A stretch of DNA of 64,000 bases, from assembly GCA_017548045.1 (NCBI GenBank), contig JAFYNR010000033.1, forward strand, positions 1 to 64,000. Direction: 5' to 3'. Below, one piece after another: positions 20,675 to 28,365 of the stretch (position 1 is the first letter of the stretch; each line of letters begins with the position of its first letter). The notes under the pieces are model-generated. The model was given only the letters and a program-made list of their open reading frames with translations, was not told where the DNA came from and did not search any database. The translations under genes were made by a program, and so were the position numbers. Source of the DNA: Clostridia bacterium (lineage in GTDB: Bacteria > Bacillota > Clostridia > Oscillospirales > Acutalibacteraceae).

Positions 20675-20750
20675 GGGCCTGTAGCTCAGTTGGGAGAGTG
20701 CTACATTCGCATTGTAGAAGTCGTGGGTTCGACTCCCATCAGGTCCACCA
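20675..20750 (+). tRNA. tRNA-Ala (CGC)
   Basis: A 76-base cloverleaf: acceptor GGGCCTG/CAGGTCC with a G3-U70 pair, the alanine identity element. The anticodon stem CTACA/TGTAG encloses TTCGCAT (anticodon CGC). The T arm is GTGGGTTCGACTCCCAT and CCA is encoded. Its last 22 bases are duplicated downstream. Confidence 0.95.
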
Positions 20751-20790
20751 AGAAAAGGTTTGCACCGTCAGGTGTGAACCTTTTGTTTTT
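20729..20790 (+). repeat. Direct repeat copy 1: tRNA-Ala 3' end plus terminator
   Basis: 62 bases covering the last 22 bases of tRNA-Ala (from TCGACTCCC), CCA and the terminator hairpin. They recur at 20880-20941 with one difference (T versus C in the T-run). The period is 151 bases. Confidence 0.95.
20753..20784 (+). terminator. tRNA-Ala terminator
   Basis: AAAAGGTTTGCACC pairs with GGTGTGAACCTTTT (two G-T or mismatched positions) around GTCA, followed by TTTTGTTTTT. Confidence 0.85.
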
Positions 20791-20879: not shown

Positions 20880-20941
20880 TCGACTCCCATCAGGTCCACC
20901 AAGAAAAGGTTTGCACCGTCAGGTGTGAACCTTTCGTTTTT
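20880..20941 (+). repeat. Direct repeat copy 2: orphan tRNA 3' end plus terminator
   Basis: The second copy of the 62-base unit. It has no tRNA 5' half in front, so it is not a tRNA gene. It resembles the attachment-site duplication left when an element inserts at a tRNA 3' end, although only 89 bases separate the copies. Confidence 0.95.
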
Positions 20942-21789: not shown

Positions 21790-22821
21790 CTACCTTCTTT
21801 CTATTACGTCTGATCGAATGTCAAGCAAAAATTCATCACGGTCACTAATATTGCGGAAAACAAAAATTCTTCCGAATTTCGGCGACGGTGCTTCATCGTG
21901 GAATTCACCTTCAAGACAGTCCGTCTGCGAACCGAAAACATCAAAGGTAAAATCATGAATACCTCTTGTGGTACCCTTGTTGACTTCGTGAGAGTTAAAA
22001 GAACCGTTGAACATACGCTTTGCATTAAAAATTCCGAAAATTTCTCCGTTGTCCTGAAGGGTATATTCTCCGACAAACTTCGAGTATTTCAGCTTGTTTT
22101 CGGAGAAAGCTCCTTTTTGAGTGTCGTAATACATAATATTGTAATTCAGGCCTTCCATATGAAGCGACTTGTATTCATTGGGAGAAAAATCCTGCTCAAT
22201 TTTTATGGTGCCTACACGTATGTACGTTTCGTCATCTTCGCTCAGATGAACGTGATACCAACTGCCGCCCAGGTCATAAGCTCTGTGCTCATCACGCCAT
22301 TTTTCAAGCTGTTCGGCGGTCATCTGTGTGTTTTCAATTCTTGTCCATCCGATACATTTTGCGAAATTGTGGGTATTAAAAAACTGACCTATAATTGTTT
22401 TGATGGGAAATTCGTCAGATACATTGCGTGCACCGAAGGATATTTTCTTGCTGAATTCTATCTGACGTTTCTCATCATCCGAAAGAAGATTTTCATCCTT
22501 TCCGAGATTTTCAACAAGCTCTTTGCAACGTATAACAACTGCAGGCTTGCCTTTTTCTATGGCATATTCATATTCACGCTCGGTCCACGATATTCCTTTT
22601 TCGTCACACGAGCCGTAACACTTACCCATAAGCATTATAAAGAAATCCGATTCGTCGATAAGCTCCTGAATATCAGAAAACTCGCCGTTGGTGGAAACGG
22701 TAAAATGCTCCATTCCGATGGGAAGAATACGAAAATCCAGCAATGAATCAATAACCATATTCCGTTCATTGCGAAGAGATTCAAACGCAGAAGAGATAAA
22801 CGCGGTGTATATCTTGTTCAT
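21790..22821 (-). CDS. DUF4062 (TIR-like) protein with a C-terminal beta-rich domain
   Basis: A 343-residue protein. Residues 1-110 match the DUF4062 pattern: YTAFISSAFESLRNERN, then LPIGMEHF, then SDFFIMLMGKCYGS and EYEYAIEKGKP. This domain has a TIR-like Rossmann fold and occurs in NLR-type and WD-repeat signalling proteins. From about residue 185 the protein is predicted beta-rich (GGSWYHVHLSEDDE, then VGTIKIEQDF), perhaps a small barrel acting as a ligand sensor. No signal peptide. A strong AGGAGG precedes the ATG. It is first in a two-gene unit with the inositol-monophosphatase gene. A defence or nucleotide-signalling role is possible; there is no direct evidence. Confidence 0.72.
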   Translation of the reverse strand: MNKIYTAFISSAFESLRNERNMVIDSLLDFRILPIGMEHFTVSTNGEFSDIQELIDESDFFIMLMGKCYGSCDEKGISWTEREYEYAIEKGKPAVVIRCKELVENLGKDENLLSDDEKRQIEFSKKISFGARNVSDEFPIKTIIGQFFNTHNFAKCIGWTRIENTQMTAEQLEKWRDEHRAYDLGGSWYHVHLSEDDETYIRVGTIKIEQDFSPNEYKSLHMEGLNYNIMYYDTQKGAFSENKLKYSKFVGEYTLQDNGEIFGIFNAKRMFNGSFNSHEVNKGTTRGIHDFTFDVFGSQTDCLEGEFHDEAPSPKFGRIFVFRNISDRDEFLLDIRSDVIERR

Positions 22822-22937
22822 TGACAGTCCTCCTGTAAATTCACATAGAAAACATCTGCTTTTATAATATAAAAAAACTTAAATTATGTCAACATAATAT
22901 TCGGTCAGCCAACACTTTTTAGCCGGATACGACAAAA

Positions 22938-22960
22938 GCCGCAGGCTTTGAACCTACGGC
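22938..22960 (-). terminator. Terminator of the dehydrogenase/symporter operon
   Basis: GCCGCAGG pairs with CCTACGGC (one mismatch). On the minus strand TTTT follows. It sits eight bases after the symporter stop. Confidence 0.8.
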
Positions 22961-22968
22961 TTATATTA

Positions 22969-24360
22969 TCAGGAATTACTGCTTACCGCATCAAGTACTT
23001 CACGCTTGAAATCGCCGTGAATCTTATATTTCTTTGAGAAGATAATCAGAGAAACAATCATCATAACGGGAGGCACAATGAACATAAGGAATGAAATTGC
23101 GCTCTTTGCGGCGGGAGTCTGCACTGCAGCTTCGCCGTTGTAGCCCGTCAGAGTAAACGATGCGTACATAATAACCGCCTGTATTGTGTATGCCATTTTC
23201 TGCAAAAAGCCCTTCATTGAGAAGGTGAGGCTCTGATTACGGTTGCCTGTTTTGTATTCGCCGTAGTCAACGCAGTCTGCAAGCATAACCGTCTGGTTAA
23301 CAAACATACTTCCGGTACCCAGAGATGTGAGAATATAGAAAACGCCCAGTGCGGTTACGCTGACACCTTCACCGAAGGCGTAACCCATAATTGCCATACC
23401 GATATAGCCTGCAGCCGCCATCGAAAGGGACATTTTATATATTGAACGGTTGTTCATAAACTTTGAGCATACGGGCACAACGAGAATAGCAAGCACGGAG
23501 CCTACCGTACCCATAAGATTGAACTTTGACTGCAGGGTAAGGTCGCCGAGCACCGACGTAAAATAATAGCTGCTGATGCCCGAGGTCATATAGAAGCCTG
23601 CGTTTGAAATCATTGCAAAAAGCATAAAAACAAGAAGCTGGTCATTGCTCTTTATAACGTTGATTGCCGCCTTGAACGAAAATTTTTCGTTGTTGACAAC
23701 AACACGTCTTTCTTTGGTTGAAAGCACGCTGATAAGAGCAAAGAAAATCAGACCTGCCGCCGTTATAAATGACCATTTGCCGAAGCCCTTGCTGAGTGTA
23801 TCCGAGGTCATTGAATCAAGCTTACTGCCTGCAACGCCGCCCAGTGCCGCAACGGCAATGGGTGTGAAAATGGAGATAATTCCCTGACCGAGACCCGAAA
23901 AGGCTCTTGCAATGGTGGAAACAAGGTTTCTGTCCTTTTCTTCGCTTGCAAAGGAGGGCACCATTGACCAGAAAGGAATATCCGCCAGAGTATTTGTCAT
24001 ACCCCAGAAAACGTAAAGCACTGCGGCATAGACGTAAAGACCGATTGAACCTGCACCGAAGCCGGGATTATTGAAAAGCAGGCAAAGCACAACGGCGTTG
24101 AGCATTGCACCTGTAAAAATCCAGGGGCGGTATTTGCCCATCTTTGTTTTGGTTTTGTCAACAATCATACCCATCATAGGGTCGTTAAAGCCATCCCAGA
24201 GTCTTGCAAGGGGCGTTATGATAAGCAGAAAAGCGGGCGAAATTCCCAAAGCATTGGTAAGGTAAATTGACAGATAGGAATAGAACATTCCGTAGCTCAG
24301 GTCAAGACCTATGGCACCTACGCCGTAGCCCAGCTTTTCTCTGAGTGAAACTTTATTCAT
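22969..24360 (-). CDS. GPH-family sugar:cation symporter
   Basis: A 463-residue protein with about twelve membrane segments. The N terminus REKLGYGVGAIGLDLSYG and the loop DGFNDPMMGMIVDKTKTKMGKYRPWI are hallmarks of the glycoside-pentoside-hexuronide:cation symporters (MelB, XynB-like). It would bring a glycoside or uronide into the cell. The start at 24360 has AGGTG upstream; longer in-frame starts overlap the preceding gene. It is the last gene of the five-gene operon, placed to supply its substrate. Family sure, substrate unknown. Confidence 0.9.
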   Translation of the reverse strand: MNKVSLREKLGYGVGAIGLDLSYGMFYSYLSIYLTNALGISPAFLLIITPLARLWDGFNDPMMGMIVDKTKTKMGKYRPWIFTGAMLNAVVLCLLFNNPGFGAGSIGLYVYAAVLYVFWGMTNTLADIPFWSMVPSFASEEKDRNLVSTIARAFSGLGQGIISIFTPIAVAALGGVAGSKLDSMTSDTLSKGFGKWSFITAAGLIFFALISVLSTKERRVVVNNEKFSFKAAINVIKSNDQLLVFMLFAMISNAGFYMTSGISSYYFTSVLGDLTLQSKFNLMGTVGSVLAILVVPVCSKFMNNRSIYKMSLSMAAAGYIGMAIMGYAFGEGVSVTALGVFYILTSLGTGSMFVNQTVMLADCVDYGEYKTGNRNQSLTFSMKGFLQKMAYTIQAVIMYASFTLTGYNGEAAVQTPAAKSAISFLMFIVPPVMMIVSLIIFSKKYKIHGDFKREVLDAVSSNS

Positions 24361-24376
24361 AAAATTCACCTGTAAA

Positions 24377-25447
24377 TTAAACGATATCCTCAAACTCTAC
24401 TACCCTGTTGGTTTTGCCCGATTCAAAAATGGCTTCAACAAGGCGCATAAGTCTGCGCTGCTGATTGTGGGTAACGATGATATTTTCCTCGCCTCTGAGG
24501 TGAGCAAAAATATTCTTGTAGTATTCGCCCCAGTCAGCCTTCTGAACGTCAAGAGGATATGTCTGAATGGTGTCATCGGTACGGGGTGCCATGGTCTTTG
24601 TTATACCTGCACCTGCAACGATGGGTACTGCATCCCTGTTTTCCCAATCGGAAACCATAACGATTTTACCGTCGGGCTTCCAGCTGTCAACAACGGCAGT
24701 ACCGTTTTCACCCAGCATATACCACAAAGGAAGCTCGATAAAGTTGCTTGTTGTAACTTCAACATAGAATGAAAGTCCGTCGTCAAAAATAAGGGTAGTG
24801 CGGAAACCGTCATCACAGTTTTCGTTTGTGACGTTGGTAAGCTCCGCATAGACGGTTTTAAGCTTTCTGGGCAGGGTCATCATAAGCGCCTGGTCAAGAA
24901 GGTGGATACCCCAGTCATAAACCATACCGCCGCCGTGCTGAGGCTGATTGCGCCAGTCGCCGGGCACGCCTCTTGAACCCTGAACACGGGATTCAATGCG
25001 GAAAACGTTGCCCAATGTGTTCTCGTCAAAAAGCTTTTTCATTGTGAGGTAATCCTCATCCCATCGTCTGTTCTGATGAACGGTGAAAAGCTTGCCTGTT
25101 TCTTCTGCGCAGGCAATCATCTCTTCAAGATCTGCCGAACAGATGGTAACAGGCTTTTCGCTGATAACGTTTTTGCCGTGACGCATTGCATCAATGGCAA
25201 TTTCCTTATGAACGTCGTTGGGAGTTGCGATTGTTACAAGGTCGATACGCTCATCATTCAGCAATTCTTCACGGGAATTGAAGAAATAAAAGCCCTTTTC
25301 ATCCGCAACCTTTTTTCTTTCGGGATTAATGTCAAATACACCTACAACCTCGGCATATTCGCCCATTTCTTCCTTGATTTTACGGGCGTGCCATCCGCCC
25401 ATTCCGCCGTAGCCGATAACGGCACAGCCAATTTTATTATTTACCAT
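24377..25447 (-). CDS. Gfo/Idh/MocA-family oxidoreductase (first)
   Basis: A 356-residue NAD(P)-dependent dehydrogenase. The Rossmann opening reads AVIGYGGMGGWHARK, the EKP motif (ISEKPV, near residue 95) has the catalytic-loop lysine, and the C-terminal half is the alpha/beta dimer domain with HGGGMVYDWGIHLLDQ. The family oxidises a sugar or cyclitol hydroxyl, often at C3 of a glycoside. It lies 33 bases after the epimerase-like gene in the operon. It is distinct in sequence from the oxidoreductase at 27195, so the two probably act at different steps. Confidence 0.9.
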   Translation of the reverse strand: MVNNKIGCAVIGYGGMGGWHARKIKEEMGEYAEVVGVFDINPERKKVADEKGFYFFNSREELLNDERIDLVTIATPNDVHKEIAIDAMRHGKNVISEKPVTICSADLEEMIACAEETGKLFTVHQNRRWDEDYLTMKKLFDENTLGNVFRIESRVQGSRGVPGDWRNQPQHGGGMVYDWGIHLLDQALMMTLPRKLKTVYAELTNVTNENCDDGFRTTLIFDDGLSFYVEVTTSNFIELPLWYMLGENGTAVVDSWKPDGKIVMVSDWENRDAVPIVAGAGITKTMAPRTDDTIQTYPLDVQKADWGEYYKNIFAHLRGEENIIVTHNQQRRLMRLVEAIFESGKTNRVVEFEDIV

Positions 25448-25480
25448 AGTATCGCCTTCTTGTGTTTTTGATAAGTGGAA

Positions 25481-26446
25481 TCAAACCCACCACATTTCAC
25501 CTGTTGACTCTGTGAGAATAATATTTTTGAGGAACGAAACAGCCTTTGAAAGACCTTCGTTCTGACTCATAAGCGAATCCTCGTGCTCAATGCTGATGGC
25601 ATAGTCATAGCCAACCATACGAAGGTTTGAAATTATATCCTTCCAATAAGCATTGTCGTTGCCGTAGCCTATTGTACGGAAAATCCAGGAACGGTTGATT
25701 TCATCGCCGTAGGGCTTATTGTCAAGCACACCGTTAACGGCTGTGTTGTATTTATCAATCTTTGTATCCTTTGCGTGAAAGTGGAAAATTGCATCACCCA
25801 GCTTGCGTATGCAGGCAACGGGATCCATACCCTGCCAGATAAGATGGCTGGGGTCAAAGTTTGCACCGATTTCGGGACCTACCGCCTCACGGAGCTTAAG
25901 CAGAGTTTCCGTGTTATAAACGCAGAAGCCGGGATGAAGCTCTAGTGCAATCTTGTTAACGCCGTGAGCCTTTGCAAACTCAACAAGGTCCTTCCAATAG
26001 GGAATAAGAACCTCGTTCCACTGCCATTCAAGGATTTCGCCGAAATCATTGGGCCAGGGGCAGGTTACCCAGTTGGGATATTTTGCGGTTTCGCAGTCAC
26101 CGGGGCAGCCCGAGAAGGTGTTGATCTGGCTCAGACCAAGCTTTTCGGCAAGAAGAATGGTGTTTCTGATTGTCTTGTCGTAATCGGCGGCAATTTCCTT
26201 GTTGGGATGCACGGGATTACCGTGGCAGGAAAGTGCACTGATCTGAACATCATATTTTTTGAGCAGAGCTTTGAATTCTTCAAGCTTTGCTTCGTCATTA
26301 AGCAGAACTTCGGGGTCTGCGTGAGCGTTGCCGGGATATCCGCCGCAGCCGATTTCAACCATTTCAATGCCCAGTGATTTGAAATATTTAAGTGCCTCTT
26401 CAAGCGAGAGGTTTGAAAGTAATGTTGTGAATACGCCGAGTTTCAT
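25481..26446 (-). CDS. Sugar phosphate isomerase/epimerase-like TIM-barrel protein (first)
   Basis: A 321-residue AP-endonuclease-2/xylose-isomerase-like barrel. Likely metal ligands are in ALELHPGF (Glu), NFDPSHL (Asp, His), HFHAKD (His) and SIEHED (Glu). Members isomerise or epimerise sugars and keto-sugars, or eliminate the aglycone of 3-keto-glycosides. At 321 residues it is longer than its 241-residue partner downstream in coordinate, with an insertion around WVTCPWPNDFGE. Strong AAGGAGA before the ATG. Third gene of the operon. Confidence 0.87.
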   Translation of the reverse strand: MKLGVFTTLLSNLSLEEALKYFKSLGIEMVEIGCGGYPGNAHADPEVLLNDEAKLEEFKALLKKYDVQISALSCHGNPVHPNKEIAADYDKTIRNTILLAEKLGLSQINTFSGCPGDCETAKYPNWVTCPWPNDFGEILEWQWNEVLIPYWKDLVEFAKAHGVNKIALELHPGFCVYNTETLLKLREAVGPEIGANFDPSHLIWQGMDPVACIRKLGDAIFHFHAKDTKIDKYNTAVNGVLDNKPYGDEINRSWIFRTIGYGNDNAYWKDIISNLRMVGYDYAISIEHEDSLMSQNEGLSKAVSFLKNIILTESTGEMWWV

Positions 26447-26457
26447 AGTATTTCTCC

Positions 26458-27183
26458 TTAAATAATGCTCTTTAAATACTTAAGGCTTCTTGTGATATCC
26501 TCAAAGCCTGTAGGTACGGGGTCATCGTTTTCGACGATAAGCCATTCCATACCGATATCCTTTGCCGCTTTAACAACTGCAGGAATATCGCAGTTGCCTT
26601 CGCCCAATGCCTTGGGCTTGCCGTCGATACCGTCTTTGACGTGAAGGTGAACAATGTTATCCTTCTTTTCGGTAATCAGCTTATAATTATCTTCGCCTGC
26701 GTGGAAGCTCCAGTAGGTATCGATTTCAAGGGAGCAGAGGCTGCCGATGATATCAATAGGAAGCTTGCCGCTTTCGGTGGGCTTGAATTCTTCGCAGTGG
26801 TTGTGGTAATAAACCTTCATACCGTATTTGTCCATAGCGTACTTCTGAGCATCACCAAGAACTTTTCCTGTGTTTTCAGCTTCTGCATCGGTGTTGTGCG
26901 GTGCACCGCCTACACCCACAGCTTTAACACCGAGGGTATTCTGGAATTCAATGGTTTCTTCAAGCTTACCTGCCTTGAAATCATCAAGACCTATATGGCC
27001 GCCTACGGCAACCAGACCGATTTCGTCAAGCTTTGCCTTTATTGTTGCGGCATCCGTGCCGAAATAGCCTGCAAATTCAACACCGTCATAACCGATTTTT
27101 TTGATTTCTTCAAGTGCGGCAAGCAAGGTTTCTGTGTTATTTATATGTTCTCTTACGGAATAAACCTGAACTGCTATTTTCAT
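26458..27183 (-). CDS. Sugar phosphate isomerase/epimerase-like TIM-barrel protein (second)
   Basis: A 241-residue compact member of the same barrel superfamily. Metal-ligand candidates lie in YYHNHCEEF, LEIDTYW, HLHVKDG and IVENDD. The length and HNHxxEF pattern resemble IolE/hydroxypyruvate-isomerase-like and 3-keto-sugar enzymes. It is the second gene of the operon, 11 bases from each neighbour. Two barrel proteins in one operon suggest either successive steps or two halves of one reaction. Confidence 0.87.
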   Translation of the reverse strand: MKIAVQVYSVREHINNTETLLAALEEIKKIGYDGVEFAGYFGTDAATIKAKLDEIGLVAVGGHIGLDDFKAGKLEETIEFQNTLGVKAVGVGGAPHNTDAEAENTGKVLGDAQKYAMDKYGMKVYYHNHCEEFKPTESGKLPIDIIGSLCSLEIDTYWSFHAGEDNYKLITEKKDNIVHLHVKDGIDGKPKALGEGNCDIPAVVKAAKDIGMEWLIVENDDPVPTGFEDITRSLKYLKSII

Positions 27184-27194
27184 TGCTTTTCTCC

Positions 27195-28286
27195 TCAGTC
27201 GTTATTGATATATACGGGCTTACCTGTCTTTGCAGACTCATAGATTGCTTCAAGAATCTGTGTAACAACCATTGCCTGCTCGGGCTTTGTGCGAAGCTCT
27301 GCACCGTTAAGCACTGCATCATAGAATGCACGGCACTCAAGCTCTTCGGGCTTGTCGCTTGCACCGTCATAGAATGCTACGCCGCCTGCATCAAAGTTGG
27401 GTGTTTCGATAACCTGTCTGCCGTTTTTTACGTAGTTGATACGAAGGTCGTCGCCAAGCATATCTGCGCCGCCCTTGACACCTGCAATAAGAGTTGATGC
27501 CTCACAGGGGTCTGCAATATTGAGTGCCCAAGCGGATTCAACGCTGATTGTTGCGCCGTTTTCCATAACAACAAAGCCGAATGCGGAATCTTCAACGGTA
27601 TACTTTTCGGGATCCCAGTCGCCCCATGCATTTGCGGTTCTCTTCTGATCGCCAAGCTTCTTGAAGGTTGTACCTACAACCATCTTGGGCTTATAGTTGT
27701 TCATCATCCAGAGGGTAAGGTCAAGTGCGTGAGTACCGATATCGATAAGGGGTCCGCCGCCCTGCTCTTCTTCATTAAGGAAAACACCCCAGGTGGGAAC
27801 GGCACGTCTGCGCAGTGCAAGTGCTCTTGCATAGTAGATTTCACCGAATTCATCATTCTCACAGCACTCTTTAAGATAGAGGGAATCGCCTCTCCAGCGT
27901 GACTGATAGCCGATTGAAAGAACCTTGCCCGTTCTTACGGAAGCCTCGTACATAGCCTTTGCCTCTGCATAGGTCTTAGCCATGGGCTTTTCGCAAAGAA
28001 CGTGCTTACCTGCTTCAAGTGCATCGATGGTGATAAAGCTGTGTGACTTGTTGGGGGTACAAACGTGAACAGCAACAATGCTTTCATCCTTCAGAAGCTC
28101 CTTGTAGTCCGTGTAAACCTTTGCGTCTGCCGAACCGAATTTCTTTGCGGTTTCGATTGCTCTTTCTTCAATAATGTCGCAGAATGCAACGGGCTCGAGG
28201 AAATCAATGTTTGAGATTGCGCGAAGATGCTTTCCGTTTGCGATGCCGCCGCATCCGATTATACCGATTCTTACTTTTTCAGCCAT
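27195..28286 (-). CDS. Gfo/Idh/MocA-family oxidoreductase (second)
   Basis: A 363-residue dehydrogenase. GIIGCGGIANGKHL binds the dinucleotide, HVLCEKPMA (near residue 95) holds the EKP motif, and GGGPLIDIGTHALDLTLW (near residue 185) is the family's substrate-domain signature with the catalytic Asp and His. It is the first gene of the operon, with AAGGAG before the ATG and a promoter/operator upstream. Expected role: NAD-dependent oxidation of a sugar ring hydroxyl. Substrate unknown. Confidence 0.9.
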   Translation of the reverse strand: MAEKVRIGIIGCGGIANGKHLRAISNIDFLEPVAFCDIIEERAIETAKKFGSADAKVYTDYKELLKDESIVAVHVCTPNKSHSFITIDALEAGKHVLCEKPMAKTYAEAKAMYEASVRTGKVLSIGYQSRWRGDSLYLKECCENDEFGEIYYARALALRRRAVPTWGVFLNEEEQGGGPLIDIGTHALDLTLWMMNNYKPKMVVGTTFKKLGDQKRTANAWGDWDPEKYTVEDSAFGFVVMENGATISVESAWALNIADPCEASTLIAGVKGGADMLGDDLRINYVKNGRQVIETPNFDAGGVAFYDGASDKPEELECRAFYDAVLNGAELRTKPEQAMVVTQILEAIYESAKTGKPVYINND

Positions 28287-28337: not shown

Positions 28338-28365
28338 ATTATAATACTTTACCAAAGTAAATCAA
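28338..28365 (-). promoter_or_regulatory. Operon promoter with operator TACTTT-N3-AAAGTA
   Basis: On the minus strand TTGATT and TATAAT are separated by 16 bases. The whole spacer is filled by the perfect 6+6 dyad at 28345-28359 (TACTTTACCAAAGTA on the plus strand). The same half-sites and spacing occur at the melA start of transcription (32953-32971). Confidence 0.75.

Follow-up and report, generated by a model that had tools for sequence, protein, structure and literature searches.

A candidate operon for non-hydrolytic glucoside cleavage in an uncultured gut Clostridia bacterium

Organization of the operon

This study concerns a five-gene operon in the genome of an uncultured Clostridia bacterium (Acutalibacteraceae), located in a 64,000-nt stretch of DNA that we call the window (contig JAFYNR010000033.1, positions 1 to 64,000 of the forward strand). 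We suggest that the operon probably serves the cleavage of glucosides by oxidation and elimination instead of hydrolysis. Its features are given below in the order of transcription.

28338..28365, minus strand: promoter-like match 5' of GFO1 (TTGATT-16-TATAAT, 10/12; weak evidence)
27195..28286, minus strand: GFO1, 363 aa, DgpA/YcjS-type glucoside C3 dehydrogenase, predicted to take the first step and perhaps also to reduce 3-keto-glucose
26458..27183, minus strand: OGE-like TIM barrel, 241 aa, predicted metal-dependent 3-keto-glucoside beta-eliminase
25481..26446, minus strand: HYD-like TIM barrel, 321 aa, predicted 2-hydroxy-3-keto-glucal hydratase (LgdB2-like)
24377..25447, minus strand: GFO2, 356 aa, Gfo/Idh/MocA dehydrogenase, predicted 3-keto-glucose reductase, the least certain step
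22969..24363, minus strand: GPH-family sugar:cation symporter, 464 aa from its ATG, predicted importer
22932..22966, minus strand: terminator-like hairpin 3' of the GPH gene

An earlier, sequence-only reading of this DNA had described a tight same-strand operon with one promoter and one terminator. The first point is borne out, as the five open reading frames (ORFs) run from 28286 to 22969 with intergenic gaps of 11, 11, 33 and 13 nt; AGGAG motifs precede the second and third genes. The terminator holds as well: the hairpin behind the last gene has a folding energy of -19.3 kcal/mol (z -6.2), and 0 of 200 shuffled sequences were as stable; the hairpin is absent from the listing of a consensus terminator scan. 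The promoter fares less well: GFO1 is preceded by one 10/12 match, yet the number of such matches in the region (11) does not stand out from that expected from shuffles (8.9 +/- 2.9). For the symporter we use the ATG at 24363 as the start; a reading from the TTG at 24393, which gives the longest ORF, overlaps GFO2.

In Pfam, the operon proteins comprise two GFO_IDH_MocA members, two AP_endonuc_2 (xylose-isomerase-like) barrels and one MFS_2 member, and in NCBIfam all four enzymes fall below the cut-off of every model. The draft genome, 85.7% complete, amounts to 2.38 Mb in 68 contigs. The closest GFO1 relatives among the matches listed come from Clostridia metagenome-assembled genomes of animal gut, with 95% (water deer caecum) and 89% (goat rectum) identity.

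A predicted eliminase and a predicted hydratase

The OGE-like barrel matches AtOGE (8bvk) with a phmmer E-value of 2e-12. When a profile of its family (44 sequences) was run against the Protein Data Bank (PDB), 8tcs, 8tcd and 8bvk came out on top (3e-43 to 5e-43), with IolE (3cny, 1e-14) and the 3-keto-glucoside 4-epimerase 6wn6 (1.5e-5) in lower ranks. We take 8tcs and 8tcd to act on 3-keto-glycosides, and they are presumably linked to the work of Nasseri 2024 and Kastner 2024. The metal ligands and catalytic His of AtOGE are described by Bitter 2023 (PMC10628242; this and the other papers with PMC numbers are cited for excerpts of their text). In an alignment read against that description, AtOGE H132, H134, D163, H189, E233, E39, H66 and E161 correspond to H127, H129, D155, H181, E218, E36, H63 and E153 of the OGE-like barrel, so that all eight positions align. 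E36, H63, H127, H129, D155, H181 and E218 are invariant in 55/55 homologues, and position 153 is E in 45 of them and Q in 10; the AlphaFold model of the barrel has a pLDDT of 98.0. The OGE-like sequence appears to carry the AtOGE metal site and catalytic His that an eliminase of this kind needs, in agreement with the earlier proposal that a TIM barrel carries out elimination after oxidation.

That proposal had assigned an elimination-type role to both barrels, which suits the OGE-like one, a relative of eliminases, but not the second, which looks like a hydratase. The HYD-like barrel matches 8ro4, deposited as a 2-hydroxy-3-keto-glucal hydratase, with an E-value of 2e-10 (4e-12 by profile), and its AlphaFold model has a pLDDT of 94.5. 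We take 8ro4 to be AtHYD. A second line of comparison comes from levoglucosan degradation: a search for levoglucosan dehydrogenase over 398 genomes of the phylum gave one match above the cut-off (758 bits vs 650), in a gene cluster that we call L159 (loci are numbered in this way below). The L159 proteins of 399, 274, 334 and 392 aa fit the 44, 30, 36 and 43 kDa given for LgdA, B1, B2 and C (PMC7676230); the 334-aa protein would, from its size and position, be LgdB2, and the HYD-like barrel is 58% identical to it over 323 aa. Taken with 8ro4, its second PDB match after 2zds, this points to the HYD-like sequence as the hydratase. The homology assigned to both barrels is based on their sequences and on sequence profiles.

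Two side observations concern these families. At L023 the eliminase gene is split into two ORFs (L023:4668-5367), by a frameshift or an assembly error, and the genome that holds the operon has 21 AP_endonuc_2 matches, 19 of them above the family cut-off.

Two Gfo/Idh/MocA dehydrogenases

In PDB searches GFO1 matches DgpA1 (9m3d, 434 bits, E = 3e-129) and DgpA (7xr9, 384 bits, E = 6e-114); it is also 37% identical over 329 aa (E = 8e-61) to E. coli YcjS, annotated as a D-glucoside 3-dehydrogenase. Its K100, D182 and H186, which we take to be the usual catalytic positions of the superfamily, are invariant in 81/81 sequences. By its sequence GFO1 is a candidate for the glucoside C3 dehydrogenase that a four-step pathway would need, and the DgpA matches sustain the view of the sequence-only reading that a Gfo/Idh enzyme oxidizes C3. 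According to the excerpts of PMC11239390, D3dgpA oxidizes C- and O-glucosides, including a range of O-glucosides, and none is oxidized among galactosides, rhamnosides and glucuronides; DgpA-type enzymes are also able to reduce 3-oxo-glucose themselves, and GFO1 could thus close a redox loop alone.

The best PDB matches of GFO2 are 3e18, an 'oxidoreductase' (E = 2e-95), and DgpA2 (9m37, E = 2e-63). Its K98, D178 and H182 are invariant in 31/31 sequences, and its nearest relatives leave the direction of the reaction unfixed; the predicted role as a 3-keto-glucose reductase is drawn from the logic of the gene set, not from these relatives.

A proposed four-step pathway

Judging from the sequences, we consider it likely that the operon encodes a non-hydrolytic, overall redox-neutral cleavage of glucosides by oxidation, elimination, hydration and reduction. 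The GPH symporter would import the substrate, and GFO1 would oxidize the 3-OH of its glucosyl unit with NAD+. The OGE-like barrel, with a divalent metal held by H127/D155/H181/E218 and with H129 as the base, would then remove the C2 proton and expel the C1 aglycone (or partner sugar) by beta-elimination, leaving 2-hydroxy-3-keto-D-glucal. Addition of water by the HYD-like barrel would give 3-keto-D-glucose, to be reduced to D-glucose by GFO2 with NADH, or by GFO1 itself in a ping-pong cycle. The basis of this proposal is the gene order, the family membership, the conserved active-site residues and the recurrent linkage of the four enzymes; from these we infer the reactions, the use of a metal, the direction of GFO2, the class of substrate and the cargo of the symporter.

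Recurrence of the four-enzyme cassette

The loci compared are the best 80 of at least 587 relatives, picked by similarity to GFO1, and the conservation of GFO1 among them is therefore biased upward; 18/80 have less than 3.5 kb of sequence downstream. A gene was counted as present when the BLAST best match aligned over more than half of the window protein, on the same strand and within -5/+6 kb, with bit cut-offs of 400 for GFO1, 80 for the eliminase, 300 for the hydratase, 250 for GFO2 and 150 for the GPH symporter.

By these measures the four enzymes occur together repeatedly in gut Clostridia. As raw counts, 54 of the 80 loci have the OGE-like gene, 52 have the HYD-like gene and 30 have GFO2, and 19 loci have the three together; where 3.5 kb or more follows downstream (62 loci), the corresponding counts are 45, 43, 26 and 18, and 10 of these loci have none of the three. 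The GPH gene is near the cassette in 0/80 loci, and the five-gene set was therefore rejected as a recurring unit. The sequence-only reading had named the genome context of that set as a check, and in our comparison it is the four enzymes that recur.

Over the 19 loci that hold all four enzymes, mean pairwise identity is 68% for both the hydratase and GFO1, 54% for GFO2 and 41% for the eliminase, the least conserved of the four. In 42/42 loci with both genes the hydratase also resembles its window counterpart more closely than the eliminase does, and in 37/52 it is closer than GFO1, despite the choice of loci by GFO1. This difference in conservation would follow if the hydratase met one fixed intermediate and the eliminase varied aglycones, though unequal rates may have other causes. 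Eliminase and hydratase share a history: their distances correlate at 0.888 over 20 loci (the 19 and the window). Because of this correlation, swapping of the eliminase within the four-gene cassette, which we also considered, is unsupported by the distance matrices; the eliminase just diverges faster, at 2.4 times GFO1.

Other genes were seen around these relatives. In 17/80 loci by BLAST, and in 20 by clustering, there is a third AP_endonuc_2 barrel (about 272 aa; L079:10110-10925 and similar) that the window's operon lacks. At L029, L032, L033 and L044 a GFO1 relative lies near an alpha-L-rhamnosidase gene (called by Pfam in L033, the other three being 61-85% identical to it) and the stretch examined lacks the other three cassette genes; such neighbours would fit rhamnosylated plant glucosides. 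ThuA-family genes share a locus with GFO1 or HYD relatives at L043, L070, L073, L074, L086, L087 and L094 and at L164, L171 and L177, and are perhaps another way to handle 3-keto-glycosides.

Spread of the hydratase and points against the pathway

Within the order, 119/295 genomes have a HYD-like protein (E<=1e-80, one match each) and 23/295 an OGE-like protein (E<=1e-30), the genome of the window being included in both counts; owing to the unequal thresholds, the two are not strictly comparable. We examined 20 HYD-like neighbourhoods, hand-picked from the 119 for spread over families and in some cases ended by contig ends: 12 have a Gfo/Idh gene close by (in 8, a GFO1 relative scoring at least 300 bits), 4 an OGE-like gene and 3 a ThuA-like gene. 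From this make-up, the hydratase probably serves more than the OGE-like eliminase alone. A wider and tentative idea, to which we give less than even odds, is that the hydratase acts as a shared hub in gut Clostridia, where many genomes of the order would make 2-hydroxy-3-keto-glucal from several glucosides by various dehydrogenase/eliminase pairs (OGE-like, third barrel, ThuA-like) and pass it to a single conserved hydratase. Deglucosylation without hydrolysis would in that case be a mainstream and not an exotic fate of plant glucosides in herbivore guts, and the glucoside class of the operon would be new to such pathways.

Several observations weigh against the four-step pathway proposed for the operon. 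The best PDB match of the HYD-like barrel is not 8ro4 but 2zds (E = 4e-24), deposited as a putative DNA-binding protein, and the pairwise similarity of both barrels to characterized enzymes is low (2e-12 and 2e-10). In 8/20 of the neighbourhoods above, some cut by a contig end, the HYD-like gene stands without any pathway marker within 5 kb or a shorter stretch, and the protein may thus have other roles. The nearest solved relatives of GFO2 are 3e18, for which no substrate is named, and DgpA2, crystallized with a C-glycoside (isoorientin), so from its sequence GFO2 could be a second glycoside dehydrogenase instead of a reductase; moreover, GFO2 is not nearby in 50/80 loci (36/62 when only loci with 3.5 kb or more downstream are counted). 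Finally, glucoside hydrolysis may be available to the cell, as seven GH3 matches lie elsewhere in its genome, and the operon need not replace it. Dedicated hydrolase genes had been named beforehand as a finding that would speak against oxidative cleavage: there is none in the operon, although the genome has the GH3 matches just mentioned, and GH1 gave no match in it.

The symporter

The last gene of the operon encodes a member of the GPH:cation symporters, with 319 bits against the TIGR00792 model (cut-off 231). Orthologues are present in 22/32 other genomes tested (23/33 with its own genome), including that of L022 at 88% identity; none was found in the 1.3 Mb examined of the L021 genome. The cassette is in none of 12 neighbourhoods of GPH orthologues (12-14.5 kb each). 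As linkage is seen neither in these nor in the 80 loci, the place of the symporter in the operon is a local addition. Here, joint transcription with the cassette is likely because of the 13-nt gap before the GPH gene and the hairpin after it. Three of the 12 neighbourhoods (L135, L137 and L138) hold a GH3-type gene together with a phosphoesterase and an aldose epimerase, assigned by Pfam in L138 and by BLAST clustering in L135 and L137, which hints at a glucoside cargo.

Substrate and competing explanations

Our best guess from sequence comparison is that the substrates are O-glucosides, probably plant-derived. The sequence-only reading had left the choice between a sugar-glycoside and a cyclitol pathway; the DgpA and AtOGE matches speak for a glycoside, and the cyclitol half of the statement is not supported, as the enzymes stay below the iol cut-offs (see below).

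That reading had also taken bacterial C-glycoside cleavage as its model, and we first considered the same because GFO1 is DgpA-like: in deglycosylation of the DgpABC/DfgABE kind, GFO1 would oxidize a C-glucoside and one of the barrels would cleave the C-C bond. GFO1 is indeed closest to DgpA1 and DgpA, the type of dehydrogenase that such a system uses, and GFO2 resembles DgpA2 with its isoorientin-bound structure. However, the beta-subunit of the C-glycoside lyase, CGDB (PF19906), was not found in the operon's own genome (85.7% complete), a search that is weak alone since the family is also in 0/14 control genomes, and was found in 1/50 genomes of related loci (50 of the 80 loci tested), which supplied the one positive. 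Nor is any PDB match to the two barrel profiles (17 and 7 rows, E<=0.001) named as a C-glycoside lyase. We have therefore set C-glycoside cleavage aside as improbable, and O-glucosides are the likelier substrates since CGDB was not found.

Even less probable is the anhydrosugar pathway lgdA-B1-B2-C, although it shares the four steps and the families of the enzymes (Kuritani 2020, PMC7676230). The case for it comes from the HYD-like barrel, with its 58% identity to the LgdB2-position protein, the type of hydratase that this pathway has, and its 61% identity to a protein of L160, a cluster whose LgdA relative falls below the cut-off. The dehydrogenases do not follow: against the LevoglcsnDh equivalog NF052479 (cut-off 650), GFO1 scores 103 bits and GFO2 66 bits, so neither qualifies as LgdA. 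The LgdA-, LgdB1- and LgdC-position proteins are 29-32% identical to the window enzymes, over part of their length, and L161, another cluster with an LgdA relative below the cut-off, is without a HYD-like gene in the 9.7 kb examined. Levoglucosan is thus unlikely as the main substrate.

The 37% identity of GFO1 to YcjS could also suggest C4 epimerization of glucosides or gulosides as by E. coli YcjQRS, with a barrel epimerase between two dehydrogenases, and YcjR (6wn6) is a barrel of the same superfamily as those of the operon. We find this hardly credible: YcjR, the C4 epimerase, matches neither barrel and YcjQ no window protein at E<=1e-3, the 3-keto-glucoside 4-epimerase is far down the OGE-like profile list, and the phosphorylase gene of the E. 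coli cluster is not in the operon. Cyclitol (inositol) catabolism by IolG/IolE/IolH-like enzymes is just as implausible, since the weak matches to the iolG model (104 and 95 bits vs a cut-off of 355) and the iolE model (36 and 45 vs 290) fail to give the orthology to an inositol pathway that the sequence-only reading had said would count against it, and IolE (3cny) ranks far below AtOGE in the OGE-like profile search.

Neighbouring sequence and significance

Downstream of the operon and on its strand, an ORF of 343 aa (21790-22821) starts about 150 nt past the last gene, behind the hairpin. Further on lies a 62-nt direct repeat, 98% identical (20729-20790 and 20880-20941, 151 nt apart), which covers the 3' end of a tRNA-Ala gene (20675-20750) together with sequence behind that gene; it may have arisen by partial duplication or mark a former integration site.

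The glucoside-cleavage proposal gives a concrete predicted function to four genes of uncultured gut bacteria that pass no NCBIfam model, and suggests a way in which these bacteria might free the aglycones of plant glucosides with no glycoside hydrolase involved. Cleavage of this kind would be missed by hydrolase-based catalogues of carbohydrate metabolism in the gut, and the spread of the hydratase over the order (119/295 genomes) makes the frequency of non-hydrolytic cleavage in the gut directly testable.

Comparison with known systems

A broad-specificity 3-keto-glycoside pathway with the same chemistry, using enzymes of other bacteria, is reportedly the subject of Nasseri 2024 and Kastner 2024. 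A 2026 paper, whose references include both, gives a four-step route for C-glycosides as known (PMC13273386). DfgCD, in turn, is a two-protein flavonoid O-glucosidase (PMC11170127, PMC8398226). For the Clostridia cassette itself, no publication was found in our searches of the open-licence literature.

Among systems closer to the operon, E. coli ycjQRS shares the likeness of GFO1 to YcjS, but differs in YcjR, YcjQ and the phosphorylase as set out above. DgpABC of strain PUE and Dorea (PMC8563793, PMC11239390) has a first dehydrogenase of the DgpA family to which GFO1 belongs; the DgpB family (CGDB), in contrast, was not found in the operon's own genome, and the OGE-like barrel groups with AtOGE instead. 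With AtOGE of Agrobacterium and its putative hydratase AtHYD (Bitter 2023, PMC10628242), the likeness lies in the metal and catalytic residues of the eliminase and in a hydratase of the same broad family, while pairwise similarity is low and Agrobacterium belongs to another bacterial phylum.

The closest parallel in overall design is the levoglucosan pathway lgdA-lgdB1-lgdB2-lgdC of Bacillus smithii (Kuritani 2020, PMC7676230), whose chemistry is also treated by Kaur 2023 (PMC10066097): it too has two Gfo/Idh dehydrogenases and two barrels for the same four steps. The operon differs from it in a first dehydrogenase that is of the DgpA type and not LgdA, in an OGE-like eliminase that is 31% identical to the LgdB1-position protein, and in having a GPH symporter where the levoglucosan pathway has an ABC importer. 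Thus, of the novelty suggested by the sequence-only reading, the substrate alone may stand, as the four-step cleavage logic was already published (Kuritani 2020; Bitter 2023) and the cassette described here is a further example of it.

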